Assembly: GCF_000429645.1 (NCBI RefSeq)
Contig: NZ_AUCG01000023.1
Coordinates: 186,001-250,000, forward strand
DNA from: Niveispirillum irakense DSM 11586
Lineage (GTDB): Bacteria > Pseudomonadota > Alphaproteobacteria > Azospirillales > Azospirillaceae
Direction: 5' to 3'
DNA length: 64,000 bases
In this document: piece after piece, positions 2,212 through 64,000 of the stretch
Numbering within the stretch: position 1 is the first letter of the stretch
Layout of the letters: each line of letters starts with the position of its first letter
The notes under the pieces: model-generated
Databases searched by the model: none
Told to the model about the DNA's origin: nothing
Seen by the model: the letters and a program-made list of their open reading frames with translations, nothing else
Program-made: the position numbers and the translations under genes

Positions 2212-2257
2212 TTAGATGGTCGCGATGGGGCGGCCATGGGTGTTGGGGGGACGAGGT

Positions 2258-3667: not shown

Positions 3668-3670
3668 GCC

Positions 3671-4279
3671 ATGGAAAAATTCACCCGACTGACCGGCGTT
3701 GCCGCCCCCCTGTTCCGCGCCAATATCGACACCGACGCCATCATCCCCTCGCGGGAGATGAAGCGCGTGTCGAAGGAAGGGCTGGGGGAGGGCATGTTTG
3801 CCGACTGGCGCTACAGCGATGTGGCCGCCCGTGTGGAAAATCCGGATTTCGTGCTGAACCGCCAGCCCTACCGCAAGGCACCCATCCTGATGGGCGGGCC
3901 CAATTTCGGCTGCGGCTCCTCGCGTGAACATGCGGTCTGGGCTCTGCAGGATTATGGCGTGCGCTGCGTCATCGCCCCCAGCTTCGGCGCCATCTTCCAG
4001 GGTAATTGTGTGCGCAACGGCATCCTGCCGCTGGTCCTGCCGGAACCGTCGATCGTCGCATTGGTGGAACAAGCAGACCCGCAGATCCTGACCATTGATC
4101 TGGCTGCGCAGACCGTGCGCACGCCGGACGGGACGGAACTGCCCTTCACCATCCCGCCGGCCGACAAGGAAATGCTGCTGGAAGGGCTGGACGCCATCGG
4201 CGTCACCCTGAAGCGCCTGCCCACCATCCAGTCATTCGAAGGCGCCTATCGCGCGCGCCATCCGTGGCTTTTTTTCTGA
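3671..4279 (+). CDS. Aconitase-family hydro-lyase, small swivel subunit (LeuD-like)
   Basis: This 202-residue swivel subunit pairs with the preceding LeuC-like protein. It begins with the family start (TRLTGVAAPLFRANIDTDAIIPSR) and carries the hallmark GPNFGCGSSREHA near residue 79. FGAIFQGNCVRNGILPL, near residue 109, is typical of LeuD. The gene starts 3 bp after the large-subunit stop, so the two are almost certainly translated together. The family recognises the substrate side chain partly through this subunit. The region after IDTDAIIPSR reads EMKRVSKEGLGEGMFADWRY, which differs from the second LeuD-like protein in this window (PARFLTITEKKGLGRYAF), so the two pairs probably act on different diacids. 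Confidence 0.85.
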   Translation: MEKFTRLTGVAAPLFRANIDTDAIIPSREMKRVSKEGLGEGMFADWRYSDVAARVENPDFVLNRQPYRKAPILMGGPNFGCGSSREHAVWALQDYGVRCVIAPSFGAIFQGNCVRNGILPLVLPEPSIVALVEQADPQILTIDLAAQTVRTPDGTELPFTIPPADKEMLLEGLDAIGVTLKRLPTIQSFEGAYRARHPWLFF

Positions 4280-4304
4280 AACATCCGATTGCCGAGGTTG
4301 CGCC

Positions 4305-5513: not shown

Positions 5514-5515
5514 TC

Positions 5516-31400: not shown

Positions 31401-34400
31401 CACGACGATCAGCGTCGGTACGGGCGATATCAGCCTGAGCAGCACCGTTGATGGTGCCCATTCCCTGTCGTTGAACAGCAGCGGCAGCACGTCCGTTGGC
31501 GGTGCCATCGGTGGCACCACGGCTTTGGCCAGCGTGACCACTGATGCCGGCGGGTCCAGCAGCTTCCGCTCCATCACCACGAACGGTGCGCAGACCTTCA
31601 ACGACACTGTGTCGCTGAATGGCAGCTACAAGACCAATAGCGGCGCCTTTACGACTGAAAAGGCCGTGACGCTGGCTGGCGACACGACGATTGATGCCAA
31701 TAAGGGGGCGGTCGGCTTCAAGGACACCGTCAATGGTGGCTTTGCACTGGTCGTCAATAGCAGCGGCGCGACCAGCTTTGCTGCCGCTGTGGGTGGGGTT
31801 ACGGCCCTGGCCAGCCTGACGACCGACGCCGGTGGCACGGTCACCGTCGGCAATGTCACCACCACGGGCGCCCAATCCTATGGCGAGGCGGCAACCATCG
31901 GCGGCACCTACACGTCCGGCAATGGCAATGTGTCCTTCGGTGGGGCCACAACCCTGACCGGCGCCACGACCATCAATGCCGGCAAGGGCGATATCAGCTT
32001 CGCCGGCACCGTCGATGGTGCCCAGGCCCTGACCCTTAATAATAGTGGCAAGACCAGTTTCTCCGGTGCCGTTGGTGGCACGACGGCGCTGGCCAGCCTG
32101 ACCACAGGGACAGGCGCAACCAGCCTGCGGTCGGTAACCACGACCGGCGCACAGTCTTACGGCGGTGCGGTGACGCTGAATGGCACGTTGAGCACGACGA
32201 ACAGTGGCATCACCTTCGGCAATCTGATTGTTCTGGACGGTGACAGCACGATCAGCACGGGCAAGGCCGATATTTCGGTCGCGGGTACCATCAACGGTGC
32301 CTATGCATTGACGCTGAACAGCAGCGGCACCACCAAACTGGCTGGCGCTGTGGGCGGGACCACAGCGCTGACAAGCCTGACCACCGATGCCGGTGGCAGC
32401 ACCAGCATCGTCGGCGTTAAAACCACCGGCACGCAGACCTACAATGATGCCGTTGTTCTGACGGCCGACACGATCATCGACAGCGGCAAGGGTAATGTGA
32501 CCTTCGCGTCCACCATCACGGGTCCGATGGCCTTGACGGTGAACAGCGCGGGTGTGACCAGCTTTGGTGGTGAGATCAGCGTGGCGTCGATTACGACGGA
32601 CGCGGCGGGCACGCTGTCCATCGCCGGTGGCAAGGTCACGACCACGGGCGCGCAGTCTTATGGTGATGCCGCGACGCTGACGGCGGATACGACCTTGACC
32701 GGCACAAGCGTCACCCTGGCGCAGGGCGCGCAAGGGGCCTACAGCCTGTCCGTCAAGGGTGACCTGACGATCGGGTCGGCCACGGGTGCCGGCAGCCTGA
32801 CAAGCCTCAGCGTGTCAGGGACCAGCGCCCTGAACGGCAATGTGACGACGACGGGTGCGCAGAACTACCAGGGTGCCTCCACGGTGACCGGCACGGTTGT
32901 GCTGACCTCCGGTGGCCGGGTTGATTTCGGCTCCACGGTGAGTGGTACGGGTGACCTGACCGTGAACAGCGGCGATGTCACCCGCTTTGGCGGCGCGGTG
33001 CAGCTTGGCTCGCTGGTCACGGATGCCGCCGGCACCGTGTCGCTGGCCGGCTCCGTTTCCACCAAGGGCGTGCAGACCTATGGCGAGCATGTGACGCTGG
33101 AAGGCAAGGCGCTGACCCTGACCGGCACCACCATCACCCTGGGTGCCGGTGCCGATGGCGCCGCCAGCCTGACTATCCTGGGCAATGCCGCGATCACAGG
33201 TAATGTCGGAGCCACTACAGCCCTGACCGGTCTGGATATCAACGGCACCACCAGCTTCAGCGGTGGCAATATCCGCACCACGGGCACGCAGACCTATGGT
33301 GGGGCGCTCACGCTGCTGAACAGCGCCAGCGTTGAAGGGACGAGTGTCACCCTTACCAGCGGTGCCAATGGGGCGGGCCTCACCGTCACCGGCAACGTCG
33401 TAGTGGGGGCAAACAGCACCTCCAGCTTGACCAGCTTGGCTGTCAGCGGTACGACGGCGCTGAATGGCGGGACCATCACCACCAGCGGGGCCCAAACCTA
33501 TAGCGGTGCCGTGACGCTGAATGGCGCACAGACGCTGTCCATCAGCGGCGTGCAGTTGATGTTGCTGCGCGCGGCGAACAACCAGATCTCCTTCGGCAGC
33601 ACCCTTGATGGTGCTTCGGATCTGACCATCAATGCTGGAGCTGCTGATGTGATCTTTGGCGGTGCTGTTGGCGGGACGACGGGCCTGGGTGCCCTGGTTG
33701 TCAATAGCAGCGGCCTGACCAATCTGGCGGCAGCGGGCATGAATGCGGCGTCCATCACGACGGACGCAGATGGCAGCCTGAACCTGAATGGTGGTTCCAT
33801 CACCACCAGCGGTGCGCAGACCTATGGCGAGCGTATCGACCTGACGGCGGACAGCATTCTGACCGGCTCGCTCGTCACCCTGGGTCAGGGTGCCAGCGGC
33901 GCCTGGGCGTTGACCATCAATGGCAATGCCGATCTTTCCGGCATTATCAGCCTGTCCTCGCTGTCTGTCAGCGGCAGCACGGCGCTGCGCAGCCAGACGG
34001 TAACCACCACAGGGACGCAGAACTTTGGTGGTTCACTGACCCTGCTGGGCAGCGAGGCGGTTCTGACCGGTTCGCTGGTTTCTGTGGCTGGTGCAACGGA
34101 TGGCAATGCCTCCCTTGATGTTCAGGGTAATGCCGTGTTTGGTGGCGCGGTCGGTAGCACCACGGCGCTGAAGAGTGTCAATGTCAGCGGCACAACGGCG
34201 CTGAATGGCGGCGGCGTCACCAGCAGCGGCGCGCAAACCTTCGGCGGGACTGTCACTCTGGGTGCCAATACGGTTCTGAATGGTGGTTCCGTCGCCTTTA
34301 AGGCCGGTATTGCCGGTCCGATGGCCTTGACGGTGAACAGCGCAGGTGTAACCAGCTTCGGTGGTGAGATCAGCGTGGCCTCCGTGACGACGGACGCGGC

Positions 34401-37400
34401 GGGCACGCTGTCCATTGGCAGCGGCAAGGTCACAACCACGGGTACGCAGTCCTATGGCGAGGCCGTGACGCTGACCGCGGATACGACCTTGACGGGCACC
34501 AGCATCACCCTGGCGCAGGGCGCGCAAGGGGCATATGGCCTGTCCGTCAAGGGTGACCTGTCGATCGGGTCGGCCACGGGTGCCAGCAGCTTGACAAGCC
34601 TCAGCGTGTCGGGGACCAGCGCCCTGAACGGTAATGTGACCACGACGGGTGCGCAGAACTACCAGGGTGCCTCCACGGTGACCGGCACAGTTGTGCTGAC
34701 CTCCGGCGGCCGGGTTGATTTCGGCTCCACGGTGAGCGGTACGGGCGATCTGACCGTGAACAGCAGCGATGTCACCCGCTTTGGTGGCGCGGTGCAGCTT
34801 GCTTCTCTGGTGACGGATGCCGCCGGCAGCCTGACCCTTGGCGGCAATGTCACGACCAGCGGCGCGCAGACCTTCGGGGAGCGGGCGATCCTGGCCGCCG
34901 ATGTGGCCCTGACCGGTTCAGCCGTCACCCTGTCGCAGGGTGCGGATGGTGCCTTCAAGCTGGCGATCACCGGTGGCACGCTGATCAATGGCGCGGTCGG
35001 CGCCAATACCGCGCTGACCAGCCTGGATATCAACGGCAAATCCACGCTGAATGCAGGCATCACGACCAGCGGCACCCAGACCTATGGTGGTGCTGTGACC
35101 CTGGGCAACAGCATCGGCCTGGCTGGCGGTGCGGTGCGGTTCACGGGTGCGGTTGATGGGGCACGTACCCTGTCGATCACGGGTCCGGTCAGCTTCGGTG
35201 CGGCGGTCGGTGCCAATACGGCCCTGGCCGGCCTGCATGCTATCGGAGCCAGCACGCTGAACGGCGGTACCGTCACTACAACGGGTAACCAGACCTATGC
35301 CGGTGCCGTGACCCTTGGGGCGGCCACGCTGCTGAGCGGCGGGGCGGTCGATCTGCAGGGCACGGTTACAGGCCCCGTGGCTTTGACGGTTAACAGTGCC
35401 GGCCTGACCCGCTTGGGCGGTAGCGTCAATGTTGCCAGCCTCACCACTGATGCTGCCGGCAGCCTGAACCTGACTGGCGGTGCCATCACCACCAGCGGCG
35501 CGCAGACCTATGGTGAGCGTGCAATGGTGGGGGCCGATACGGTCCTGACCGGTACGCTGGTCACCCTGTCTGGCGGTGCGGAAGGGGCACAGACCCTGAC
35601 GATCACCGGCAACGCGGCATTGGGCGGCACGGTCGCAGCGAAGAGCTTCACGGTCAGCGGAAATGCCGGGCTGAACGGGGATGTTGTCACCACCAATGGC
35701 CAATCCTATGGTTCTGTCAGCCTGAACAAGGCACTGGCTTTGACGGCGGGCGGTGATGTGCTGGTCAATGGTGCCGTGTCGGGTGCCCATGCCCTGACGG
35801 TGAACAGCGCCGGTCTGACCCGCTTTGGCGGCGCTGTAACTGTGGCCTCGCTGGTAACGGATGCTGTTGGCAAGGTAACGCTGGCCGGTTCGGTCACGAC
35901 CACGGGCGTGCAGACCTATGGCGACCATGTGACGCTGGAGGGCAAGGCGCTGACGCTGACCGGCTCTACCGTGACGTTGGGTGGCGGTGCCGATGGTGCC
36001 TCCAACCTGACGATCCAGGGCGTTGCGGCGATCTCTGGCGCGGTTGGCGCCACCACGGCGCTGATCAGCCTGGACGCCAAGGCCAGATCTGTCCTGACCG
36101 CGAATGTCACCACCAGCGGCACGCAGACTTACGGTGGTGCCGTGTCCCTGATCAAGGATGTGGCGTTGGCTGGAGGCGGCATCAGCTTTAACAACGCGGT
36201 CGATGGGGCACACACTCTTTCGATCACGGGCCCAGTCACCTTCAATGGCACCGTGGGCAACGGTACGGCATTGACCGGTTTGACGGTGGTTGGTGCCAGC
36301 ACGGTGAATGGTGGGACGATCGTCACCACGGGCGCACAAACCTATGCAGGTGCCGTGACCTTGGGAAGGACCACGCTGCTGAGTGGAGGTTCAGTTGATC
36401 TGCAAGGTGCCGTTACGGGCCCTGTGGCCCTGACAGTGAACAGCGCCGGGCAGACGCGGTTTGGCGGTAACGTGAATGTTACCAGCATCACGACCGATGC
36501 GGCCGGCAGCCTGAAACTCGATGGTGGTACCATTACTGCCAGCGAGTTCCAGAACTATCGCGATCGGGTAATCCTGGGGGCGGACACAGTCCTGACCAGC
36601 CGTCTAGTCGTGCTGAATGGTGGTGCGGAAGGGGCGCATGTCCTGACGATTGCCGGCGGGGCGCGGTTGAACGGCACGGTTGCAGTGAAGGACTTCACGG
36701 TTAGCCGCGCAACCGAGTTGAATAGTGATGTTGTCACCACGGGCAGCCAGTCCTACGGAAGTATCCTCCTGACCAAGGATGTGGTGTTGACGGCAGGTGG
36801 TGACGCCCTGTTCAACGGTGACATACAGGGAAGCCGTGCCCTGACGGTGAACAGCGCTGGGCTGACCCGGTTTGACGGCTCGGTCGGTTTGACTTCGCTG
36901 GTGACTGACGCCGCCGGCAGCCTGATCATCAGTGGGTCCATCTCGACCAGAGGTTCCCAGACCTATGGGGAGCGTCTGATACTGGCTGGCGATGTGTCTT
37001 TGTCCACGAATGGGGCCGCTCTCACCCTGTCGCAGGGCGTGGATGGTGCGTTCGGGCTTGGGCTGCTTGGCGACGTGCAGATTAATGGACCAGTTGGTGT
37101 CAATTCCACTCTGTCCAGCCTGTATATCCGGGATGATGATTTCACGCTGAATACGGACATCACCACCACCGGAAGGCAGATCTATGAAGGCGCTGTGACG
37201 CTGGCCAAAGATGTCGTGCTGACCGGTACCACTGTGAACATCACGGGTGCGGTTGAAGGGGCGCATGCCCTGACGATCAACGGTTCTGCCACTTTCGGCG
37301 GAGCGGTGGGTACCGTCGCGGCACTGACCAGCCTGAAGGTGAATGGGTCCACCGCGCTAAATGGTGGTGCCATCACCACCCGCGGCGCACAGGTCTATGG

Positions 37401-53477: not shown

Positions 53478-54602
53478 TCAGCCCGGCAAGACCACCTGCC
53501 GGATCACCCGGCCGGCGGCCAGATCATCCATCAGGCGGTTAATCTCCGACAGGGGGGCAGTGCCCGACAGCAGCCGGTGAACGGGCAGGCGGCCCGCCCG
53601 CCACAGCCCGATATAGCGCGGCACGTCACGGGCAGGGATGGAAGAGCCCATATAGCTGCCCATCAGCGTCTTGCCTTCCGCCACCAGGGAGACAGCCGGG
53701 AAGCTCAACATCTCCGCCGGGTTGGGCAGGCCCACGGTGATGGTGCGCCCACCGCGCCGGGTGGATTTGTAGGCGGCGGCCAGCACGGCTGCCTTGCCCG
53801 CTGTTTCAATGGCGACATCGGCACCACCGCCCGTCAGGTCGGCAATGGCCTGGGCGGCATCGGCCGGGGCGACGGCGGCGGCGGCCCCCAGTTCCAGCGC
53901 CAGCTTGCGCTTTTCCTCCAGCGGGTCCACGGCGATGACGGGATTGGCCCCCGCGGCCACCGCACCCAGCAGGGAGGACAGGCCGACACCGCCCAGCCCG
54001 TAAACAACCACGCTTTCCCCCGGCCGGACAGTGGCCGTATTCATCACCGCTCCCACGCCGGTCAGGACGGCGCAGCCGAACAGGGCGGCGATTTCCGGTG
54101 CGATGTCGGACGGGATTTTCACGGCGGAGCGCTGGTCCACCACCGCATGGGTGGCAAAGGCGGACACACCCAGATGATGATGGATTTCCTGGCCCGGCAA
54201 TTCCATCAGCCGGCGGCCGCCGCGCAGCAAACGCCCCTCACCATTGGCGGTGGCGCCCGGCTGGCAGAGATAGCCCTCCCCCGCGCCACAGCAGGCGCAT
54301 TGGCCACAGGCGGGCAGGAAGGCCAGCACGACACGGTCACCGGGCTTGAACTCGCTGGCGGGATCGCCTGTCTCAATCACCGTTGCCGCTGCTTCATGGC
54401 CCAAAGCCATCGGCATGGGCCGGGGCCGGTCGCCATTGATCACCGACAGGTCGGAATGGCAAAGGCCGGCCGCGTCGATCCGCACCAGCAATTCACCCGG
54501 CCGGGGAGGGGCCAGTTCCACCTCTGCCAGCCGCAGGGGGCGGCTTTCGGCATAGGGGCCGGGCAGGCCGATCTGGTCCAGAATGGCAGCGGTGATACGC
54601 AT
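53478..54602 (-). CDS. Zinc-dependent class III-like alcohol dehydrogenase
   Basis: This 374-residue MDR alcohol dehydrogenase shows the catalytic zinc Cys in GLCHSDLSV, the structural zinc cysteines in PACGQCACCGAGEGYLC, GHEAAATVIETG, and the coenzyme-binding YGLGGVGLSSLLGA followed by AVDPLEEKR. The ATG at 54602 gives the usual start just before the first strand; an in-frame upstream ATG adds 13 unlikely residues. It is the last gene of the minus-strand series that runs from the FAD oxidase at 59226. It probably oxidises an alcohol intermediate of the same route or regenerates a cofactor. The substrate is unknown; benzyl- or aryl-alcohol and S-hydroxymethylglutathione enzymes share the fold. 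Confidence 0.9.
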   Translation of the reverse strand: MRITAAILDQIGLPGPYAESRPLRLAEVELAPPRPGELLVRIDAAGLCHSDLSVINGDRPRPMPMALGHEAAATVIETGDPASEFKPGDRVVLAFLPACGQCACCGAGEGYLCQPGATANGEGRLLRGGRRLMELPGQEIHHHLGVSAFATHAVVDQRSAVKIPSDIAPEIAALFGCAVLTGVGAVMNTATVRPGESVVVYGLGGVGLSSLLGAVAAGANPVIAVDPLEEKRKLALELGAAAAVAPADAAQAIADLTGGGADVAIETAGKAAVLAAAYKSTRRGGRTITVGLPNPAEMLSFPAVSLVAEGKTLMGSYMGSSIPARDVPRYIGLWRAGRLPVHRLLSGTAPLSEINRLMDDLAAGRVIRQVVLPG

Positions 54603-54656
54603 GGCGTGTCCTCTCAAGGCCTTTTTGCGATTGCCCGGCAACAGCGCGGGGAATGG

Positions 54657-56042
54657 TCAATCCGATGATGATGCCAGGTCCGACCGGGCCGCGGCCATGC
54701 CCGCCAGCCGGCCCAGCGTGAACGCAGTGCAGATGCCCATGGCGGGCAGATAACCCCAGCAGGATGGCCCGGAAACCGACCGCGCCGCGCCGCCGCAGGC
54801 AAACAGGTTGGGCAGGGTGCTGCCATCGGCGCGCAAGACCTGGCCCGTAGCGTCAATCGCCAGCCCGCCCTGGGTATGATAGAGCGCACCGCGCACGCGC
54901 AAGGCCCGCAAGTTCCCCTGCGGTGGCGTTTCCGCCCACAGGCGCCCCTGGCTGTCTGGCTTTCCACTGCGATGGGCGGCCCAGGCATCGGCCAAAGCAT
55001 TGTCGAGTGTGGCGGGATCGGCGCCGATGGCGGCAGCCAGTTCAGCACTGTCCGCAGCGCGGCGGGCGGCGTTCAACTCGCGAAGCTGGGCACTTTCATG
55101 GATATGGGCGCAAGCCGCTTCAATCCGCTCATCGAAGATGATCCAGGCTTTTCCCCCCGGCTGTGCCAGCACGGGATGCACAATGGCGGAAATGTCCGCA
55201 GTTTCATTGTCGAAGCGGGCGCCATGGGCATTAACCAGGAATCCCCCTTCCAGGATAAAGCCCGGCGGCAGGGTGACCCCTTGCGGGTTAGTCAGCATGC
55301 CGTAGCCCTGATAGGCCCCCATATCGGCCAGGGCACCGCCGACACCAGCCCCCAGCCGGATGCCCAGCCCATCGCTGCCCTCATGCCCGTGATAATGGGC
55401 ATCGGCCGCATCGGGGATATGGGTGCGGACCATATCATGATTGCCGGCAAAACCGCCGGTCGCCAGCACCAGGCTGTCACAGCCCAGACTTTCCCGTTCC
55501 CCGCCCGGCCGTTCAATGGTGATGCCGCGCACCCGACCGGTTTCGTCCTTCAGCAGATCGACCAGACGGGCCTGGTAGAGAATATCCACGCCCCTCTCGG
55601 CCATGCGCCGATGCAGGAACTGAAGCGTATCCGCGCCAGAATGGCCCGGCCAGCCATGGACCCGCAGGCGGCTATGCCCGAAGGCGGCCTTGAAGCGCTG
55701 GTCCAGCGTGTAGGGCAGGCCGTGTGCGCTCACCAGCCAGTCCAGTGCCGGGCCGGAGCCATAGGCCAGGGCGCGGGCCAGGACCGGATCGGTCTGGCCC
55801 CTGGTCTTTTCCATGATGTCAGCGAACAGACGCTCGCCATCATCATCGATCCCCGCCTGCTGCTGCGCCGCCGTACCGGCGGCACAGAGCAGGCCCTGAG
55901 ACATGGAGGTCGTGCCGTAAGGCGTTGCATCCTGTTCCAGCAGCAGCACATCGGCCCCGGCATCGCGGGCGGCCAGGGCGGCTACGGCACCCGCCGCCCC
56001 GCCACCCGCGATGACAACCGGAATAGAATAATCAAACGTCAC
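54657..56042 (-). CDS. FAD-dependent oxidoreductase (fumarate reductase/tricarballylate dehydrogenase/ketosteroid dehydrogenase type)
   Basis: This 461-residue flavoprotein has an N-terminal Rossmann FAD site (VVIAGGGAAGAVAALAARDAGADVLLLEQ), SMSQGLL near residue 47, LVLATGGFAGN near 195, FLVNAHGARFDNE near 270, and a C-terminal LYHTQGGLAIDATGQVL, ACGGAARSVSGPSCWGYLPAMGICTAF. It is of the FAD-binding-2 family, which adds or removes hydrogen next to a carbonyl or carboxyl group (fumarate, tricarballylate, 3-ketosteroid). The lack of a heme or Fe-S partner next door suggests a soluble dehydrogenase. It lies 14 bp after an unknown protein gene, within the catabolic minus-strand operon. A desaturation that makes the alkene needed by the divergent LeuCD-like hydratase is attractive but inferred. 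Confidence 0.88.
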   Translation of the reverse strand: MTFDYSIPVVIAGGGAAGAVAALAARDAGADVLLLEQDATPYGTTSMSQGLLCAAGTAAQQQAGIDDDGERLFADIMEKTRGQTDPVLARALAYGSGPALDWLVSAHGLPYTLDQRFKAAFGHSRLRVHGWPGHSGADTLQFLHRRMAERGVDILYQARLVDLLKDETGRVRGITIERPGGERESLGCDSLVLATGGFAGNHDMVRTHIPDAADAHYHGHEGSDGLGIRLGAGVGGALADMGAYQGYGMLTNPQGVTLPPGFILEGGFLVNAHGARFDNETADISAIVHPVLAQPGGKAWIIFDERIEAACAHIHESAQLRELNAARRAADSAELAAAIGADPATLDNALADAWAAHRSGKPDSQGRLWAETPPQGNLRALRVRGALYHTQGGLAIDATGQVLRADGSTLPNLFACGGAARSVSGPSCWGYLPAMGICTAFTLGRLAGMAAARSDLASSSD

Positions 56043-56056
56043 GGCACAGCTTCCGG

Positions 56057-56572
56057 TCAGTTGTTGGGGGCGGAATTGTCGCTGAAATTCTGCCAGTCCT
56101 TGGTGACGAACTTCTCGTCAATCAGGGTGCGCTGGAAGCAGCGGCCGGCCTTGTACCAATGCCAGGTACGGGACCGGAACTTGCCGCAGTCGGAGATCTG
56201 GATCATCTCATAGAGATACAGATCCGGCTCCCCCTTACGGGTCCAGTTCAGGCAGGTGGAGCGGTTGAAATCATCCGGCTTCATGGCGGCAGCCCAGCCG
56301 GTGATCAGGTCATTGTCCCACCAGATACGGCCGTCGGCGTAAGAGGCCGGGAAGTCACGCTCCTCGGTCCGGCCATCTTCCCAGAAATAGTGATTGGTCT
56401 GGTGATAGGGGAACTCCCCCTCTTCCCGGAAGCGGCAGATCAGGCGGGAGCGGTGCTGGTCGATCAGCTTGCCGGTCTCGGCGCTGTAATAACGATACCA
56501 GCCTTCCCAGACGCCCTCGTTGCGGGCCAGCAGCGGCATGTCGCGACGCAGATCGGCGAGATTGTTGCTCAT
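56057..56572 (-). CDS. Conserved-looking protein of unknown function (171 aa), DUF3598/calycin-like
   Basis: The product is rich in Trp, Tyr, Phe and Arg and has the alternating pattern of a small beta-barrel: NEGVWEGWYRYYSAETGKLIDQHRSRLICRF, NHYFWEDGRTEERDFPASY, IWWDNDLITGWA, and LYEMIQISDCGKFRSRTWHWYKAG. It has no signal peptide or membrane helix. The look recalls DUF3598 or other lipocalin-like folds that bind hydrophobic ligands, but I cannot confirm this. It lies between the MDR reductase and the flavoprotein gene with short gaps, so it is part of the same pathway. It could be an isomerase, lactonase or binding protein. Confidence 0.55.
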   Translation of the reverse strand: MSNNLADLRRDMPLLARNEGVWEGWYRYYSAETGKLIDQHRSRLICRFREEGEFPYHQTNHYFWEDGRTEERDFPASYADGRIWWDNDLITGWAAAMKPDDFNRSTCLNWTRKGEPDLYLYEMIQISDCGKFRSRTWHWYKAGRCFQRTLIDEKFVTKDWQNFSDNSAPNN

Positions 56573-56596
56573 TTCCGATATCCCTTTCTTGGAAGA

Positions 56597-57607
56597 TTAT
56601 GACCGCAGATCGACGATGACCTTGCCCATCGACCGGCCAGAAAGCAGATGTTCGACCGCGTCCGGCACCTGATCCAGACCGGAAAACACACCATCGTCGA
56701 ACGTCACGGCGATTTTGCCAGCCGCGTGCAGGGCGAACAGTTTTTCCCGCGCTTCTGGCCACAGGTCGGTCAAAAGCCCGTTCATGAAGCCGCGCACAGA
56801 CGCGCCCTTGTAATAGAGCTTATGGGCGATGCGCGGACCGGTAACGACTTCCGGCCGCCCATCCAGATCCTGTGCTGCACCGGCCACGACCACCCGGCCC
56901 AACGGGGCGACATTGTCCAGGAACGCATCGAAAATGCCGCCGCTGACCGTGTCGATGGCAAGGTTGAGCTTGTTCGGATATTCTGCTGCCAGGATGGCGG
57001 CCACATCTTCGCGCTTATAATCGATCACCCGGTCCGCCCCCAGGCTGTGGACGAAGGCAGCCTTGCGGTCACCGCCGCACACCGCGATGACATGGGCCCC
57101 GTGCAGCTTGGCAATCTGCACCAGGAAATGGCCCAAGCCCCCGGCTGCGGCGGAAATGGCGACCGTTTCCCCCTGCCTGATTCCACCCACATGTTCAATC
57201 GCCAGCAATGCCGAAACACCTGTAGAAGCCAGGGCCAGGATGTCACGGCTGCAGGACGGCACGCGGATGAATTGTCCGGCCGGCCCGATATTGGCTTCCC
57301 GATACCCGCCGGTGAAGCGGATCGTGGCGGCGGCATCGCCGACCTGGAAGCCGGTCACACCCTCACCAACTGCTTCTACCACGCCGATGGCTTCCACGCC
57401 GGTATAGGTGGGCAGCGGGATGCGGATATAATCCACGGCGTTGCGGGCAATCTGGGTATCAAAGATCCCGTTCACCCCGCACCATTGGTTTCGGACCCGG
57501 ATTTCACCAGGACCGGGGTCGCGCAGCGGTTCGGTCATGATGTCCGCCCCGGCGCGGAAACTCTCGGCAAAGCGGTTGAGCCGTATGGCCCGATAGGTTG
57601 CGGTCAT
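56597..57607 (-). CDS. MDR-superfamily NADPH-dependent oxidoreductase (quinone reductase/ZADH2-like)
   Basis: The 336-residue zinc-independent MDR protein shows PGPGEIRVRNQWCGVNGIFDTQ, YTGVEAIGVVEAVGEGV, the coenzyme-binding SAAAGGLGHFLVQIAKLHGA, GADRVIDYKRED and a C-terminal GRSMGKVIVDLRS. Zinc-binding cysteines of alcohol dehydrogenases are missing, as in quinone, enoyl and prostaglandin reductases. Such enzymes reduce activated C=C bonds. The start overlaps the stop of the FAD oxidase gene by 4 bp, so the two are coupled, and it may reduce the product of that oxidase. The substrate is not known. Confidence 0.88.
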   Translation of the reverse strand: MTATYRAIRLNRFAESFRAGADIMTEPLRDPGPGEIRVRNQWCGVNGIFDTQIARNAVDYIRIPLPTYTGVEAIGVVEAVGEGVTGFQVGDAAATIRFTGGYREANIGPAGQFIRVPSCSRDILALASTGVSALLAIEHVGGIRQGETVAISAAAGGLGHFLVQIAKLHGAHVIAVCGGDRKAAFVHSLGADRVIDYKREDVAAILAAEYPNKLNLAIDTVSGGIFDAFLDNVAPLGRVVVAGAAQDLDGRPEVVTGPRIAHKLYYKGASVRGFMNGLLTDLWPEAREKLFALHAAGKIAVTFDDGVFSGLDQVPDAVEHLLSGRSMGKVIVDLRS

Positions 57608-59226
57608 TCCCTGTTCTTTCCGTTCATGGCAAAGCCCAGCACGCCCGGATTCAATGACCGGGTTGGATCAACGGCATCCTTGATGGCATCAAGAAGGTCG
57701 CGACTGGCGGGGTCACGGCTGTCACGATACGAATATGTCCGGCCAATTTGCAAGTGACCGCATCCAAATTCACGGAATTTTGCAACCAATAGTTTCCTAA
57801 TGCTTGTAACAATGGCTGTTGCTTCGGGATTGGCGGGCAGCTCCGGCAACCGGGCCATGTGGCTGGGCTCCAAGGCTTCGTGATGTACGGGTAGTGTCTG
57901 TTCCGGCCAGTAAATCACCGGCTCCAGGATCAGGCCGTTGGTGGAAAGCGACGTGAACAGATAACCGGTGCTGATATCGAGGCGGGCCATATCCTCCGCG
58001 AACTGGGCGAAGATGGCCTCCAGCGCGTCGAACAACGCCGGCGCCTTGGAAAGCGACGTTACACCATGGATGGGAATCCAGCGCTGCGCGCGCGGCCCCA
58101 AGGCGCTGTTCAGCGGCGGGAACGGCATGGCGCGGATGACCTTGGCGATCGTGTTCTCGATCTCCTGCCCGCCATTTTCCGTCGCGATGCGTCGGGCCGT
58201 CGCCATGTCATGGGCGACCCCTTCAGCGGTGCGGCCTTCTGCGATCATATGCAGCGGATAGCTGTCCAGATCGACAAAATCACGGCCAGCCTTGGCGATG
58301 CGGAAGCCTTCCTTCAAACCCTTCAACAGTGATTTCTGTTTCGTAATGACAGCGCCAAGTGCCTTGACGTCGCCGGTCAAGGAAGCGCGCTGCATGCGAA
58401 CCTTGGTCAGACCGGGATCGAAGGCGCACATTTCCGCAGCGATACCCGCCCGTGCCATGGCGGCCATGGCACGCAACAGGTCGCCCCCGGTGCGGAAGGC
58501 GAATGATGCATAATCCTCGTGCTGGGGGGCCTGGATCAGCCGCAGCGTGATATGGGCCTTCACGCCGAAGCTGCCACAATCACCACAGAAAATACCGGTC
58601 AGATCGGGGCCGAAATGACGATAGAAAGGCGTATCGCCATCCGCCCCGCGCGCACCGGTGCGCAATACCTGCCCATCCGCCAGCACCATGGTCAATGCGA
58701 CGACGCTTTCGCTGGTGGTGCCGTAATGGCCGGCGCCCAGCATGGCGTTCAACTGCGACACGCCCCCGCCAATGGTGGAGGTCAGGCCCGACATCGGACC
58801 CCAGAAAGGGGTGCGCAAGCCGTGGGATGCCAGGGCTTTGTTCAGGTCGATCCAGGTGCAGCCGGCTTCCACCGTCACCACCATGTCGTCGGGCCGCAGG
58901 TCGATGATCCGGTTCATCCGCTTCATGTCCAGCGACACGGTGCCACCGACCGCCGGGATATAGCCGCTGGTATAGCTCATCCCCGCGCCGCGTGGCGCCA
59001 CGGTAGCGCCGGCCTGATGCAGCGCGGCCATCACCTGGGAAAGCTGATCCAGATCGGCGGGCGTGACGACCAGGGCCACCGGCTCGGCGCTCTCGCTCCA
59101 GATATCGCCGCTATGCAGGCGACGCGTGGTGTCATCGTCGCGGACATTGGCGGGCCCGACAATAGCTGCCAGCGCCTGCTTCAGCCCCTGGCTCCCATCC
59201 TGTTGTGAAACGCCCTGATCGGCCAT
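57604..59226 (-). CDS. FAD-binding oxidase/dehydrogenase (GlcD/vanillyl-alcohol-oxidase superfamily)
   Basis: The 540-residue flavoprotein has an N-terminal FAD-binding-4 domain: PVALVVTPADLDQLSQVMAALHQAGATVAPRGAGMSYTSGY, followed by LDMKRMNRIIDLRPDDMVVTVEAG and GGGVSQLNAMLGAGHYGTTSES. The C-terminal oxidase domain ends with FGCGHLQIGRTYSY and IKDAVDPTRSLNPGVLGF. The family oxidises 2-hydroxyacids, lactate or phenolic alcohols such as 4-cresol and vanillyl alcohol. The extra middle region favours a large-cap enzyme. I chose the ATG at 59226, preceded by GGGGAC; ATG 59238 and an upstream ATG at 59277 are alternatives. It heads the minus-strand operon and diverges from the second LeuCD-like operon, with a perfect inverted repeat between them. 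Confidence 0.85.
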   Translation of the reverse strand: MADQGVSQQDGSQGLKQALAAIVGPANVRDDDTTRRLHSGDIWSESAEPVALVVTPADLDQLSQVMAALHQAGATVAPRGAGMSYTSGYIPAVGGTVSLDMKRMNRIIDLRPDDMVVTVEAGCTWIDLNKALASHGLRTPFWGPMSGLTSTIGGGVSQLNAMLGAGHYGTTSESVVALTMVLADGQVLRTGARGADGDTPFYRHFGPDLTGIFCGDCGSFGVKAHITLRLIQAPQHEDYASFAFRTGGDLLRAMAAMARAGIAAEMCAFDPGLTKVRMQRASLTGDVKALGAVITKQKSLLKGLKEGFRIAKAGRDFVDLDSYPLHMIAEGRTAEGVAHDMATARRIATENGGQEIENTIAKVIRAMPFPPLNSALGPRAQRWIPIHGVTSLSKAPALFDALEAIFAQFAEDMARLDISTGYLFTSLSTNGLILEPVIYWPEQTLPVHHEALEPSHMARLPELPANPEATAIVTSIRKLLVAKFREFGCGHLQIGRTYSYRDSRDPASRDLLDAIKDAVDPTRSLNPGVLGFAMNGKNRE

Positions 59227-59361
59227 TGCCGTCCCCATATGATGCGAACTGATGGGGGACAACCTAACCGCCCGCACCGCGATCGGCGCGGGGCGGGCGG
59301 GGATGTGTCCACAAGACGGTCAAAACGCCGGTGCCCCATGGCGGGAATGGTGCCCGGCATG

Positions 59362-59384
59362 GTCTGTTCGGCAGCCGAACAGAC
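59362..59384. promoter_or_regulatory. Perfect 10-bp inverted repeat, candidate IclR-type operator
   Basis: GTCTGTTCGG (59362-59371) and CCGAACAGAC (59375-59384) flank CAG, in the 178-bp divergent promoter between the FAD oxidase and the second LeuC-like gene. GTTCG/CGAAC cores occur in operators of IclR-family aromatic-acid regulators, and an IclR gene ends this locus at 62459. It lies 21 bp before the ATG of the LeuC-like gene, a place suited to repression. Confidence 0.72.
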
Positions 59385-59404
59385 AGGTGGCCAGGGACCG
59401 GGTA

Positions 59405-60814
59405 ATGCCAGCAACCCTTTATGAGAAGCTTTGGAACAACCATGTGGTGGCGGAAGAGGAAGGCGGCATCAGCCTGCTTTATATCGACCGGCAGATGCTG
59501 CATGAGGTTTCCAGTCCGCAAGCCTTTGCCGGCTTGCGGGAAAAGGGGCTGCGGGTCCGCAATCCCGGCGCCCATCTGGCTGTTGCCGACCATTCCGTAC
59601 CCACCCGCAACCGCGACAAGCCGATTGCTGATCCGCAGGCCCGCGCCCAGGTGGAACTGCTCGCCCGCAATGCGCGGGAATTCGGCCTCGACATGATCGG
59701 GCTGGACGATCCGCGCCAGGGCATCGTCCATGTCACGGGGCCGGAACAGGGCTTTACCCTGCCGGGGTTGACGCTGGTTTGTGGCGACAGCCACACCGCC
59801 ACCCATGGTGCCTTCGGCGCGCTGGCTTTCGGCATTGGGTCGGGCGAGTGCGAGAGCGTGCTGGCGACCCAGACCCTGCGGATGACCAAGGCCAAGACGT
59901 TACGCGTCAATGTGCTGGGCGACCTGCCGCCCGGCACGGGGCCTAAGGATATCATCCTGGCTGTTGTCGCCAAGCTGGGCAGCAATGGCGCCATCGGTCA
60001 CGCCATTGAATATGCCGGCCCCGCTATCCGTGCCCTGTCCATGGAAGGGCGGATGACCCTGTGCAATATGAGCATCGAAGCCGGATCGCGTACCGGACTG
60101 GTCGCCCCCGACGAGGTGACCTTCGCCTGGCTGAAAGGGCGACCGCTGGCACCGCAAGGGGCGGATTGGGATGAGTCCGTGCGTTATTGGCGCACCCTGC
60201 CCACGGAAGCGGGAGCGAGTTTCGACCGGGAAATCGAGATCGACGCCACCAGGCTGGCGCCGCAGGTCAGTTGGGGGACCAGCCCGGATCAGGTGGTGCC
60301 GGTTACCGGTCGCGTGCCTGACCCCGCCGGTGCCACCGATCCGGAAGCCGCCGCCAAGATGACCAAGGCCCTGGCCTATATGGGGCTGACACCGGGTCTA
60401 CCGATCCAAGAGATCATTGTCGGCCATGTCTTTATCGGCTCTTGCACCAATGGCCGGATCGAGGATTTACGTGTCGCCGCCCGTGTGCTGAAGGGACGGC
60501 GCATCGCCGATGGCGTTTCTGCCCTGGCCGTGCCCGGCTCCCAGGCTGTGAAGAAGCAGGCGGAAGCCGAGGGGCTGGACGTGATCTTCCAGCAAGCCGG
60601 TTTTGAATGGCGGGAGCCGGGCTGCTCCCTCTGTGTGGCCATGAATGACGACCGTTTGCCGCCGGGCGCGCGTTGTGCCAGCACCTCCAACCGTAATTTC
60701 GAAGGCCGTCAGGGTCAGGGCGCGCGCACCCATCTGATGGGGCCGGCCATGGCGGCGGCATCGGCCGTTGCCGGGCATATCGCCGATCCGCGCGATTATC
60801 TGGGGGAGGCGTGA
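59405..60814 (+). CDS. Aconitase-family hydro-lyase, large subunit (second LeuC-like, dimethylmaleate hydratase-type)
   Basis: The ATG at 59405 gives 469 residues beginning with the typical [14 protein letters not shown]; an earlier in-frame start at 59252 would run through the operator region and is rejected. Cluster ligands are Cys347 in GSCTN and Cys407 and Cys410 in CSLC, exactly LeuC spacing. Other hallmarks are [34 protein letters not shown] and [20 protein letters not shown]. This protein is closer to canonical LeuC ([18 protein letters not shown]) than the first copy. The downstream gene is a lyase of the isocitrate lyase/PEP mutase family, not leucine genes. A hydratase forming a 2,3-dialkylmalate, as DmdA does in nicotinate fermentation, is a better fit than leucine synthesis. 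A housekeeping LeuC is still possible. Confidence 0.85.
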
Positions 60815-60817
60815 GCC

Positions 60818-61426
60818 ATGGAGCCCTTTATCCGCCTGTCATCCATTGCGGCCCCTTGGAACGAGGCCGATATTGATACGGATATCATCTATCCGGCCCG
60901 CTTCCTGACCATCACGGAAAAGAAAGGGTTGGGGCGTTACGCTTTCCATGACCGCCGGTTTGATGGTGAGGGCAGGGAGTTCGAGGATTTCATCCTTAAC
61001 CGTGCCCCCTGGCGGCAGGCCGGCATCCTGGTGGCGGGGCCGAATTTCGGCTGTGGCTCCTCGCGGGAGCAAGCCCCCTGGTCCATGCTGGATCTGGGCA
61101 TCCGCTGCATCATCGCCCCCAGCTTCGGTGAAATCTTCCGGGGAAATTGCTATCGCAACGGCATGCTGCCGGTGACGGTGGATGAGGCGACACATGCCAC
61201 CTTGCTGGCGGATGCAGCAGCCGGGGCTGTGCTGGATGTCGATCTGGAAGCCGGGACCATCACCCGCCCGGATGGCAGCAAGATTGCTATTATCATCGAC
61301 CCGCAGAAACGCGATGCGCTATTGAATGGCTGGGACGAGGTGATGACCATCCTGAACCGCCAGGGCGATGCCATCAACCGCTATGAAACCGAGCGCCGTC
61401 AGCGCTTCCCCTGGTTGGCCCGCTAA
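60818..61426 (+). CDS. Aconitase-family hydro-lyase, small subunit (second LeuD-like, dimethylmaleate hydratase-type)
   Basis: The 202-residue swivel subunit starts 3 bp after its partner. It has NEADIDTDIIYPARFL at the substrate-binding start, GPNFGCGSSREQAPWSMLDLGIRC near residue 70, and FGEIFRGNCYRNGMLPV. The C-terminal NRYETERRQRFPWL is typical for LeuD. The side-chain-recognition loop after IDTDIIYPARFLTITEKKGLGRYAF differs from that of the first LeuD-like protein (PSREMKRVSKEGLGEGMF), consistent with a different diacid. The next gene follows after 56 bp. Confidence 0.85.
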   Translation: MEPFIRLSSIAAPWNEADIDTDIIYPARFLTITEKKGLGRYAFHDRRFDGEGREFEDFILNRAPWRQAGILVAGPNFGCGSSREQAPWSMLDLGIRCIIAPSFGEIFRGNCYRNGMLPVTVDEATHATLLADAAAGAVLDVDLEAGTITRPDGSKIAIIIDPQKRDALLNGWDEVMTILNRQGDAINRYETERRQRFPWLAR

Positions 61427-61482
61427 ACGCAGCCGCTCGCCAGAACCTTCATCAAACCACCACCATCAGGCAGAGAGATACC

Positions 61483-62343
61483 ATGGCCAACCCCATCCTG
61501 CGCCAGAAACTGGCCGCCCGTCAGTTCGTGATCGCCCCCGGCATCCAGGACATGATCACCGCCGCCATCGCCAACAAGGTCGGTTTCGATATCGTCTATG
61601 GCACGGGCTATTGGATGGTTGCCTCCTCCCTGGGCTTGCCGGATGCCGGCCTCGCCTCCGTAACGCAGATGGTGGACCGCATGTCCACCCTGGTCCGCAC
61701 CTCCAACGCCGCTGTGATGGCCGATGCCGACACCGGTTTCGGCGGGTTGCTGAATGTGCATCACACCGTGCGCGCCTATGAACAGGCCGGTGTCACCGCC
61801 ATCCAGATCGAAGATCAGGAATTCCCCAAGAAGTGCGGCCACACGCCCGGCAAGCGCGTGATCCCGGCAGAGGATATGGCGGAGAAGATCCGGGTGGCCG
61901 TGGCGGCCCGCCAGGATGAGAACATGCTGATCATCGCCCGTACCGACGCCCGCCAGACCGAAGGGCTGGAGGGTGTGCTGCACCGGATGAAGCTTTATGC
62001 CGAAGCCGGTGCCGATATCCTGTTCCCCGAAGCGCTGACCTCTGACGAAGAGGCGCGCATCGTCACCGCCTCTCTCGACAAGCCCTTCATGGCCAATATG
62101 GCTGATGGCGGCCTGACCCCGATCCGTGATGCCAAGACCCTGGAAGGGCTGGGCTACTCACTGGCCATTTTCCCGTCCATGACCAGCCTCGTGGCCGCTG
62201 CGGCCATGGAGAAGTCCTTGACGCATCTGAAAAATACGGGGGAGAGCCAGACGGCCGACATCCCGATGTTCGACTTCAAGGAATTCTGCTCCCTGATCGG
62301 GTTCGAGGATGTCTGGGCCTTCGATAAGAAGTGGGCCCGCTGA
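61483..62343 (+). CDS. Isocitrate lyase/PEP mutase-family lyase (2,3-dimethylmalate lyase or methylisocitrate lyase type)
   Basis: This 286-residue TIM-barrel protein has the family traits IAPGIQDMITAAIANKVGFDIVYGTGYWM, MADADTGFGGLLNVHHTVRAYEQAGVTAIQIEDQEFPKKCGHTPGKRVI, and IIARTDARQTEGLEGV. The KKCGH stretch carries the reactive Cys of the lyase branch (KRCGH in isocitrate and methylisocitrate lyases), and DADTGFGG and EDQ supply the metal site. This argues for C-C cleavage of a malate derivative rather than a mutase. The immediate neighbours are a LeuCD-like hydratase, so the pair could turn a dialkylmaleate to a 2,3-dialkylmalate and split it to pyruvate (or glyoxylate) and a carboxylic acid, with no CoA step. 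prpC and prpD are absent, which argues against a methylcitrate cycle. Confidence 0.86.
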   Translation: MANPILRQKLAARQFVIAPGIQDMITAAIANKVGFDIVYGTGYWMVASSLGLPDAGLASVTQMVDRMSTLVRTSNAAVMADADTGFGGLLNVHHTVRAYEQAGVTAIQIEDQEFPKKCGHTPGKRVIPAEDMAEKIRVAVAARQDENMLIIARTDARQTEGLEGVLHRMKLYAEAGADILFPEALTSDEEARIVTASLDKPFMANMADGGLTPIRDAKTLEGLGYSLAIFPSMTSLVAAAAMEKSLTHLKNTGESQTADIPMFDFKEFCSLIGFEDVWAFDKKWAR

Positions 62344-62458
62344 TCTTTCCTGACCGTCTGTCCAGCAGGCGGATAGGGCAACATCGTTTCTGCGACCGGC
62401 ATCCCCCATCTTGGCACCATCCCTTTGTCATATCCGACTGTCGGGGAAGGGGCTGTAA

Positions 62459-63256
62459 ATGGAAAAAGGGGTGCCGATCCGGGCCATCAGTCGGGCGATT
62501 GCGGCGTTGAAAGCGATCAACCGCCAAGGCTCCCTGACCATGATGGAAATTGCGCGGGCGGCGGAGGTGCCATACCCCACTGCCTGTCGTCTGGTCCAGA
62601 CCCTGGTCTATGAAGGGCTGGTGGAGCAGGAGCCGGATCGCAAACGCTATCGCCCGACGGCTCTGGTGCAGTCCCTGGCCTATGGGTTCCAGGATGATGA
62701 CCGGCTGGTGGAGGTGGCGCGACCGCATATCATCTCCCTGACGCGGCGCATCGGCTGGCCCATCTCCATCGCATCACGGGTGGGGCGCAACATGATGTTG
62801 CGCGACAGTACCCATGCCAATACGGCCCTGACCTTCGAGCGTTACTATCCGGGCTTCACCCTGCCGGTGCTGGATAGCGCATCGGGCAAGCTCTCCATGG
62901 CCTACACGGCGGACGAGGAGCGGGAGACCCTGCTGCGCTGGATGAAAGTGTCACAGGAAGTGGACCCGGAATATCTGAAGGCTGCCCGCGCTGGATTGAA
63001 CGTGGAGCGTATCCGATCGCAAGGCTATGCGGTCCAGGGGCGCAATCACCATAACCTGACGCCGGGGAAGACGGCATCCGTTGCTGTGCCCATTTTCCTG
63101 AGCGGCCATTTCAAGGCGGCAATGACGATGATCTTCTTCGCCTCCGCCATGAATGTAGAAGCGGCATTGGATCGTTATCTTGACGACCTGAAAGGAACGG
63201 CAGAAACGATCAGTGCGGAGTTGACCCAGGTGGCGGCGCAGCGGCCAACCACCTGA
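62459..63256 (+). CDS. IclR-family transcriptional regulator (MhpR/PcaR-like)
   Basis: The 265-residue regulator has a winged helix (VPIRAISRAIAALKAINRQGSLTMMEIARAAEVPYPTACRLVQTLVYEGLVEQEPD, about residues 4-60) and an IclR effector domain (LTRRIGWPISIASRVGRNMMLRD, SGKLSMAYTADEERETLL, GKTASVAVPIFLSG). The form is close to regulators of aromatic-acid pathways such as MhpR and PcaR. It ends the divergent catabolic locus, and the GTTCGG/CCGAAC palindrome at 59362-59384 is the likely target. Aromatic or side-chain acid induction is plausible but not shown. Confidence 0.87.
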   Translation: MEKGVPIRAISRAIAALKAINRQGSLTMMEIARAAEVPYPTACRLVQTLVYEGLVEQEPDRKRYRPTALVQSLAYGFQDDDRLVEVARPHIISLTRRIGWPISIASRVGRNMMLRDSTHANTALTFERYYPGFTLPVLDSASGKLSMAYTADEERETLLRWMKVSQEVDPEYLKAARAGLNVERIRSQGYAVQGRNHHNLTPGKTASVAVPIFLSGHFKAAMTMIFFASAMNVEAALDRYLDDLKGTAETISAELTQVAAQRPTT

Positions 63257-63270: not shown

Positions 63271-64000
63271 TTACCGGGCTTGCGCTGTCAGTTTCACCGG
63301 CTGTTTCAACCCGCCCAGCAGCAGGTTAGGCAGCCGGCTATTGTCCCAATCCACATCCTTGGGCGGGTTGGGGCCCATGCGCAGCACGATCAGGCCGGCG
63401 GCGCGGGAAATCTGCACCGTCTGGTTACCATTGCCATCGAACATGAACAGGTCTTTGTCCAGATAAGGCTGGCTGTGCAGCACCTGCGGTCCGGGAGCCC
63501 CCGGCGCCCCGAAACCGCGCCGGTCCTGATAGGGGCCGGCGACCCACAGGCCAAGACCGTAATGCGGATTCTGCGCCGTTGCCGTGGCCATTTCCTGAAC
63601 ATAACCCTCCGGCAGCAGGCGCTTGCCGTTGACTACGCCATCATCCAGCAGCAGCCGGGCCATATGCAGCCAGGACCGGGCCGGCAGCATCATGCAGCAG
63701 CCGGAATGGGCCAGCCCCTCGGGCCGGTTGATCCAGACTTCTCCACCCGGTGCCCCGACCGGGGACAGCAATTCAGTGCCGACAAACTCTGCATAGCGTC
63801 GGCCGGTCGCCCGTTCGATCACCACGGCGATCAGCTCCGATGTCGCGTTGGAATAGCCGTAGCGCGTCCCCGGCTCGTGGGTCAGCGGATAATCCTGGAT
63901 GATATAGGTACCGTGATCGCTGGAGAGATAGGCCAGGTTCCAGGGGCTTGCCGGGTCGGGACTGAAACCCTGCTCCAGGAAACCGGTACGCATATCCAGC
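63271..64000 (-). CDS. Beta-lactamase (class C)-family serine hydrolase, N-terminus cut by window edge
   Basis: The frame is open to base 64000, so this is the C-terminal 243 residues of a protein that normally has 400-450. The preserved part has the LDMRTGF start of the second half, the Tyr motif YGYSNATSEL (YxN), LLSPVGA and a Gly-rich C-terminal end. The catalytic SxxK lies beyond the edge. Family members include esterases, penicillin-binding-protein-like enzymes and 6-aminohexanoate-dimer hydrolases. A role as an esterase at the start of the neighbouring catabolic route is a guess. The stop lies 15 bp from the convergent IclR gene. Confidence 0.8.
   Translation of the reverse strand, partial: LDMRTGFLEQGFSPDPASPWNLAYLSSDHGTYIIQDYPLTHEPGTRYGYSNATSELIAVVIERATGRRYAEFVGTELLSPVGAPGGEVWINRPEGLAHSGCCMMLPARSWLHMARLLLDDGVVNGKRLLPEGYVQEMATATAQNPHYGLGLWVAGPYQDRRGFGAPGAPGPQVLHSQPYLDKDLFMFDGNGNQTVQISRAAGLIVLRMGPNPPKDVDWDNSRLPNLLLGGLKQPVKLTAQAR

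Follow-up and report, generated by a model that had tools for sequence, protein, structure and literature searches.

The anaerobic fermentation of nicotinate by Eubacterium barkeri ends with a dimethylmaleate hydratase (DmdAB) and a 2,3-dimethylmalate lyase, and in the degradation of cyclic imides an imidase is followed by a half-amidase. A related pair, HxnM and HxnN of Aspergillus nidulans, consists of a PuuE-related ring opener and a subsequent amide hydrolase (PMC9304392). Here we analyzed a 64,000-nt stretch of the Niveispirillum irakense DSM 11586 genome (G000, contig C7, G000:C7:186001-250000), referred to as the window, which contains two divergent gene sets at positions 53478-63256 (Table 1). 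One encodes an FAD oxidase (FOX), an MDR-family reductase, a 171-aa protein tentatively referred to as DUF, an FAD_binding_2 flavoprotein (FRD), and an alcohol dehydrogenase (ADH); the other encodes a LeuC/LeuD-type hydratase (LeuCD), a lyase, and an IclR-family regulator. Judged from sequence, this locus may encode a lower pathway, together with some feeding enzymes, for a cyclic and probably nitrogen-containing compound, a reading to which we assign a probability of about 0.45. The hydration and cleavage steps at its end are fairly well supported.

It is this end that resembles nicotinate fermentation: an aconitase-family hydratase and an ICL/PEPM-family lyase are predicted to take a substituted maleate to a malate and then to an oxo acid and an acid. 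A preliminary description of the locus had stated that no known pathway fits, which was half right: the lower steps resemble those of dimethylmaleate hydratase and dimethylmalate lyase, and relatives of these genes stand beside imidase-like and half-amidase-like genes. Unlike the fermentation genes, the hydratase in the window is of the LeuC/LeuD rather than the HacA/DmdA type (LeuC scores 333 vs 386 bits on the HacA/DmdA-type model, and LeuD 82 vs 109 bits on the LEUD_arch-type model), and oxidases are encoded alongside it.

The lyase belongs to the ICL/PEPM family, has matches to petal death protein, methylisocitrate lyase, and 2,3-dimethylmalate lyase, and carries the Cys of the K-K/R-C-G-H loop. 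Its KKCGH loop aligns with KKCGH of petal death protein and with KRCGH of dimethylmalate lyase (3fa3). Although prpB (TIGR02317) is its best NCBIfam model, it scores 255 bits against a cut-off of 354, and it differs from the methylisocitrate lyase chain 3eoo, which, like 3fa3, has KRCGH at the loop. Enzymes of this family are known to cleave alkylmalates to a 2-oxo acid and a carboxylate.

LeuC and LeuD exceed the cut-offs of the leucine biosynthesis models (715 vs 560 bits on TIGR00170 leuC, and 182 vs 116 bits on TIGR00171 leuD), as does a second pair in the window (LeuC2 and LeuD2, 563 and 205 bits), and the catabolic claim therefore rests on their gene context. The genome holds four PF00330 and four PF00694 places. 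As a better-scoring leuC (797 bits, G000:C2:706839-708377) and a better-scoring leuD (249 bits), the latter beside a leuB on contig C1 (469 vs a cut-off of 353 bits), are present elsewhere, both pairs in the window are probably extra copies.

For the gene context, 80 of 154 relatives of DUF were kept as loci and the window proteins were compared with them by tblastn; gene calls in these loci are based on homology, and gene starts there are rough. Six of them (L005-L010) are Niveispirillum-type congener loci, and the closest DUF relatives, at 87-88% identity, are from Niveispirillum and similar records. FOX, MDR, DUF, LeuC, LeuD, the lyase, and the flanking serine hydrolase occur together in all six, at 71-88% identity, and the arrangement is therefore beyond chance. 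At the level of homology, FOX-MDR-DUF with LeuC-LeuD-lyase is thereby established as a conserved unit within the genus. The left neighbors of the block (an aldo-keto reductase and, named by eye, DJ-1-like, LysR, and aldolase-like genes) had no retained match in the six loci. The earlier view of a catabolic-looking locus is supported, and its named genes, places, and strands were all correct, except that there are nine complete genes rather than ten. The spacing is tight, as had been described: the minus-strand genes are 15, 14, and 24 nt apart, with one 4-nt overlap, and the plus-strand genes are 3, 56, and 115 nt apart.

Table 1. Features of the window, in window coordinates; the last column gives the number of congener loci (n=6) with a relative.
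Feature	Coordinates	Strand	Basis or remark	Congener loci
Zinc-dependent MDR alcohol dehydrogenase (ADH)	53478-54641	-	PF08240+PF00107; nearest NCBIfam model TIGR03989, below cut-off	4/6
FRD, FAD_binding_2 flavoprotein, fumarate reductase/ketosteroid dehydrogenase superfamily	54657-56042	-	PF00890, solved relatives	3/6
DUF, 171 aa, DUF3598_N-like	56057-56572	-	PF12204, E 6e-4, just under cut-off	6/6
MDR-family reductase	56597-57607	-	Best solved relatives prostaglandin reductase 3/ZADH2	6/6
FOX, VAO/GlcD-type FAD oxidase	57604-59226 (open reading frame to 59277; likely ATG 59226)	-	PF01565	6/6
Perfect palindrome GTCTGTTCGGC-A-GCCGAACAGAC	59362-59384		23 bp; two 11-nt arms with a 1-nt spacer, lying 20 nt ahead of the LeuC start	
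LeuC-type aconitase-family large subunit	59405-60814 (open reading frame from 59252)	+	PF00330; TIGR00170	6/6
LeuD-type small subunit	60818-61426	+	PF00694; TIGR00171	6/6
ICL/PEP-mutase-family lyase, KKCGH loop, proposed alkylmalate lyase	61483-62343	+	PF13714; under prpB cut-off	6/6
IclR-family regulator	62459-63256	+	PF09339+PF01614	4/6
Beta-lactamase-family serine hydrolase, cut by window end, runs to G000:C7:250500	63271-64000	-	PF00144	6/6
Second module, aldehyde dehydrogenase (ALDH)	747-2159	+	Pfam	
Second module, LeuC2	2216-3667	+	Pfam	
Second module, LeuD2	3671-4279	+	Pfam	
Second module, CoA-transferase III	4305-5513	+	Pfam	
Second module, HMGL-type lyase	5510-6454	+	Pfam	

Outside the genus the two halves largely part. 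Among the other 74 DUF loci, FOX-MDR-DUF stand in a row in six (L011, L014, L016, L019, L021, and L024) and the lyase is found at at least 55% identity in four (L019, L023, L025, and L031). Thus the co-occurrence of the halves, which the preliminary description proposed as a check, holds in all six congeners, but beyond them extends only to L019, where FOX-MDR-DUF and the lyase lie within ~20 kb and the tblastn comparison with the window proteins revealed no LeuCD. Two loci (L023 and L025) contain LeuC-LeuD-lyase with ADH, IclR, and DUF but without FOX. Relatives of IclR are near DUF in L011, L023, and L025 (53-54%) and in L031 (72%).

The same association was surveyed in 240 alphaproteobacterial genomes, with a threshold of E<=1e-100 for FOX. 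DUF is present in eight and FOX in 12 of them, and seven have both; only G091 has DUF alone. The hypergeometric probability of this overlap is 7e-10, or 2e-7 with the genus excluded (five of six DUF genomes), although related genomes are not independent. Relatives of the lyase at at least 60% identity were found in four of the 240 genomes (G000, G175, G099, and G194), three of which carry DUF.

The block could also be two independent back-to-back operons with separate substrates, for which the single shared locus outside the genus (L019, among six with FOX-MDR-DUF and four with the lyase) and a non-conserved palindrome could be cited. We consider this the least probable of the alternatives, given that both halves are kept in all six congeners and that, in another family, relatives of FOX and of the lyase are found together (L136 and L138).

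FOX, for which 19 of 28 family members were aligned, has an FAD_binding_4 domain (107 bits), and in its N-terminal half it is similar to chains of D-lactate dehydrogenase, glycolate oxidase, and p-cresol methylhydroxylase; the C-terminal domain PF02913 scores 21.1 vs 21.2 bits, and the best PDB stretches span only about the N-terminal half. In FRD we compared the positions that bind the dicarboxylate in fumarate reductase (R402, H365, R544, and H504). With reference to flavocytochrome c fumarate reductase, all seven FRD orthologues have I at R402 and Y at H365, none has Arg at R544 (C, S, H, or F instead), and all keep H504. The best structural match is 1jrz, with Y at 402, which we take to be a mutant. 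Because R402, H365, and R544 are replaced, a free dicarboxylate is an unlikely substrate for FRD, and a neutral imide or ketone ring would fit better. A plain alkylsuccinate (TcuA-type) dehydrogenase, on whose model FRD scores 148 bits against a cut-off of 369, was dropped as a candidate after this residue check.

DUF falls just below the gathering score of PF12204 (20.6 vs 22 bits), while 44 of 57 family members match that model at E<=0.1, the best at 3e-6. The alignment comprised 57 of 81 sequences (the window and 56 of the 80 loci; L051 and L055 were omitted because of a stop codon in the matched frame, and the others were mostly near-duplicates) and has 31 invariant columns, many of them polar, which suggests that DUF is an enzyme rather than a carrier. 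H40, C46, Y56, Q58, N60, R112, E122, R133, R135, and E153 are among the invariant residues. A PDB profile search with the family returned nothing significant, the best hit being 2o62 (E 0.46), presumably a DUF3598 protein. A DUF3237 domain was also sought in the 57 members, without a match. PinX, which has such a domain, resembles two decarboxylases (PMC12607616 and PMC12997858), which indicates that catabolic enzymes can be found among small DUF proteins. Those papers deal with lignan and aromatic-dimer catabolism in sphingomonads, which is similar to the present case in being encoded by alphaproteobacterial catabolic gene sets. Pinoresinol/lignan catabolism was rejected as a model for the locus, as no isopropylmalate dehydratase turned up in the searched passages of the two papers.

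The case for nitrogen comes from an isochorismatase-family amidohydrolase (ISOCH) and a tandem pair of PuuE-like genes that recur beside relatives of the lyase and the hydratase. A 60-residue piece of ISOCH was used as the query and gave 15 places in 14 of the 240 genomes, which include six of the eight DUF genomes. All 15 stretches were read: 14 have the tandem pair, ten a lyase relative, seven a LeuC/DmdA-type gene, 12 a lyase and/or a hydratase, and two an FRD relative. The first 12 were read with some lyase positions already known, and L115, L138 (G029), and L140 (G095) were added later, so that the count for the pair went from 12/12 to 14/15. By comparison, none of 13 control stretches picked for a lyase relative has the pair. 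The full set is arranged as DmdA-DmdB-lyase-ISOCH-PuuE-PuuE-FRD in L134, and L133 has FRD-lyase-ISOCH with PuuE-PuuE; the FRD relatives in L133 (45%) and L134 (43%) differ from the window FRD at key positions, with R at R544 and H at the place of H365 in L133. FOX relatives accompany ISOCH, the pair, and the lyase in L136 (38%) and L138 (35%). L131 starts with 117 residues that are 54% identical to the C-terminus of a FOX, where there is no Pfam match, and continues with DUF1838, a TonB-dependent receptor, ISOCH, two PuuE-like genes, the lyase, and DmdBA. The hydratases in L129 and L131 are of the HacA/DmdA (475 vs 386 bits) and LeuD/DmdB (173 vs 109 bits) types. ISOCH and the pair are also present in 14 of the 80 DUF loci (L046-L052, L059, L060, L062, L064, L065, L071, and L076). 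In N. irakense itself, PuuE-PuuE-ISOCH is encoded at C7:163511-166151 (L126 11511-14151), ~20 kb left of the window.

The isochorismatase family includes maleamate amidohydrolase, and the family matches found here include N-carbamoylsarcosine amidohydrolase. The PuuE-like proteins of the related loci score below the PuuE cut-off (58 and 122 vs 425 bits), and PuuE-type proteins are described as related to cyclic imidases (PMC9304392). From these two relationships, the order imide, half-amide, diacid, hydroxy-diacid, and two acids can be drawn, and it may carry over to the block in the window. The parallel with HxnM/HxnN lies in the PuuE-like genes paired with an isochorismatase; the product there is hydroxyglutarate, whereas here a maleate-type hydratase and a lyase adjoin, and the imide set lies outside the nine-gene block.

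We propose the following scheme. In the family at large, the PuuE-like pair would open a cyclic imide and the ISOCH-type enzyme would deamidate the product, giving a maleate, both being predicted activities. LeuCD would then hydrate or isomerize the substituted (alkyl) maleate to an alkylmalate, which the lyase would cleave, yielding a carboxylic acid together with pyruvate or glyoxylate as the 2-oxo acid. FRD may carry out a redox conversion of a neutral imide or ketone ring, while FOX, MDR, DUF, and ADH may oxidize, reduce, or rearrange a larger parent and so release the maleate piece; IclR would sense a pathway intermediate. In the second module of the window (747-6454), the final cut would go through a CoA ester, by the CoA-transferase and the HMGL-type lyase.

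A number of observations weigh against this scheme. Within the genus, ADH and IclR are each missing from two of the six congener loci (present in 4/6) and FRD from three (3/6), and outside it L019 is the only DUF locus that joins the halves. FRD lacks the full set of dicarboxylate-binding residues of fumarate-type enzymes, and LeuC and LeuD pass as ordinary leucine enzymes by score. As to the imide-type genes, L140 has ISOCH without the PuuE-like pair, weaker ISOCH-family hits (33-39%) occur in four of the 13 control loci, and the pair is absent from all nine stretches centered on FOX, although for L117 it sits in the adjoining L115. The hydratases of six imide-type loci share only 31-40% identity with the window LeuC, and the lyases there share 36-47% with the window lyase. 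PuuE-PuuE-ISOCH of N. irakense is ~81 kb away from the window lyase, and the PuuE-like gene nearest to the cluster (C7:253218-254126) is single, with no isochorismatase beside it. Finally, neither FOX nor FRD is found in any of the 14 DUF loci that carry ISOCH with the pair, and the absence of FOX makes the link to nitrogen an indirect one.

Accordingly weighed, a parent ring without nitrogen (aromatic, enone, or terpenoid) is a real possibility, and the strongest of the alternatives. FOX, MDR, FRD, and ADH would then perform redox reactions on the ring and its side chains, LeuCD and the lyase would handle a branched diacid, and the imide-type genes would come from other pathways that share the lower steps. 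Such a parent is consistent with the p-cresol methylhydroxylase chains among the FOX relatives, with an MDR closest to prostaglandin/enone reductases, with an FRD in which dicarboxylate residues are missing and which is similar to ketosteroid dehydrogenases, among other enzymes, with the FAD monooxygenase of the aromatic-hydroxylase type in the vicinity, and with the 0/14 count for FOX given above. What speaks for nitrogen instead is that DUF is found with ISOCH and the pair in 14 of 80 loci, that FOX relatives stand beside ISOCH and the pair in L136, L138, and the joined L115+L117, and that the imide-lyase loci L133 and L134 contain FRD relatives.

A role in central metabolism appears improbable. 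In that case LeuCD would be a surplus isopropylmalate isomerase and the lyase a methylisocitrate-lyase-like enzyme, both contributing to leucine or propionate metabolism, and the oxidation operon next to them would have no connection with either. LeuC and LeuD do pass the leuC/leuD cut-offs, and prpB is the best model for the lyase, but the lyase stays below that cut-off, a better-scoring leuC and leuD-leuB are found elsewhere in the genome, and the genes are co-inherited with FOX-MDR-DUF in all six congeners.

Within the preferred reading of a cyclic, probably nitrogen-containing substrate, one candidate parent can be singled out. The gene cluster family could form a dedicated aerobic route for tetrapyrrole fragments, in which maleimides from chlorophyll, haem, or bilins (methyl-ethyl-maleimide and hematinic acid) would be opened to maleamates and then deamidated to 2-methyl-3-alkylmaleates. 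These would be hydrated by LeuCD/DmdAB-type enzymes and cleaved, giving pyruvate plus a fatty acid or a dicarboxylic acid, with FOX, MDR, and DUF acting on larger bilin-like precursors. This parent is attractive because cyanobacterial aggregates have yielded species of Niveispirillum (PMC11089705) and because maleimides and hematinic acid are listed as products of chlorophyll breakdown, reported from senescent leaves and lake sediments (PMC7318184); still, we regard it as unlikely. If true, it would reveal a microbial sink for ring fragments of chlorophyll and haem, and the label "leucine biosynthesis" on such extra LeuCD pairs would be wrong. Alkylpyridines, prenylquinone fragments, and enone or terpenoid rings may also be the parent.

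All these enzymes belong to known superfamilies. In the open-access literature searched, no description was found of their combination, in which a hydratase of the LeuCD or DmdAB type stands with a lyase, or with a CoA-transferase and an HMGL lyase, and is linked in some members of the family to a tandem PuuE-like pair, an isochorismatase, FOX, and a DUF3598-like protein, in agreement with the earlier proposal of an undescribed system. The present analysis leads to a proposed lower pathway for substituted maleates and cyclic imides that can be put to the test, and to first hypotheses on what the 171-aa protein and the two PuuE-like proteins do.

Co-regulation of the two halves, which diverge around a palindrome, had also been suggested. 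The FOX and LeuC open reading frames overlap as called, but matches to the LeuC models do not start until residue 52 of the frame (ATG 59405), and the alignments with the six congeners reach or approach ATG 59405 for LeuC and ATG 59226 for FOX, so that this overlap is an artefact of start codons. After correction, the divergent gap is 178 bp long (59227-59404). The palindrome in it is real; with up to three mismatches allowed, its 17-base core has a single occurrence in the window, where 0.5 would be expected by chance. In all six congeners, however, the corresponding intergenic stretch contains no palindrome with at least 8/9 arm positions paired (spacer 0-7), and only the FOX-proximal half (CCGAACAGACCATG-like) is partly conserved. 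Because the symmetry is missing there, a shared-operator role is not supported, and the palindrome as an IclR operator is likewise unsupported.

The cluster is wider than the boundaries first drawn for it. In congeners (L006, L009, L010, and L118), genes for a second FOX, two MFS transporters, a DUF1838 protein, and a methyltransferase paired with a ~120-aa protein lie beyond ADH. The second FOX, the two MFS genes, DUF1838, and the methyltransferase pair are found in N. irakense at L116 10687-18366 (G000:C10), and the cluster thus seems to be split in this genome, as the part that adjoins ADH in congeners sits on another contig. Beyond IclR there are the serine hydrolase, a cytochrome c, the aromatic-hydroxylase-type FAD monooxygenase, an arylmalonate decarboxylase (Amdase)/maleate isomerase-like gene, and the single PuuE-like gene. 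A further FOX lies left of the window (C7:170293-171942).

Hydratase and lyase systems are present in 25 of the 80 DUF loci, eight with the lyase type of the nine-gene block and 17 with the CoA-transferase/HMGL type. The second module of the window is of the latter type and is 55-71% identical to a module beside the DUF gene in L047. In the congener G175, one continuous region (L115+L117) unites two PuuE-like genes, ISOCH, DUF, DUF1838, ALDH, LeuC, LeuD, the CoA-transferase, HMGL, the methyltransferase pair, and FOX. The second module is preceded in the window by a carbon-nitrogen hydrolase on the minus strand (2-652).

Some of the accompanying genes recur elsewhere. The methyltransferase has a long N-terminal region and is encoded with its ~120-aa partner at L087 2795-4366 and 8780-10263 and at L047 347-1939; the two families occur in 30 and 26 clustered loci, respectively. 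DUF1838 proteins of several subfamilies are also recurrent (L005 13323-14465, L029 15568-16590, and L032 10569-11504). To the right of the window, a minus-strand run at L085 11116-18800 (G000:C7:256116-263800) encodes an MFS transporter, two alpha/beta hydrolases, two luciferase-like monooxygenases, an M24-family protein, and an APH-family protein, and is possibly another heterocycle pathway. Within the window, a ShlB/FhaC-type two-partner-secretion transporter (PF03865, 17673-19454) is followed by a repetitive open reading frame of 6506 aa (19459-38979) that, by eye, looks like its haemagglutinin-type partner.

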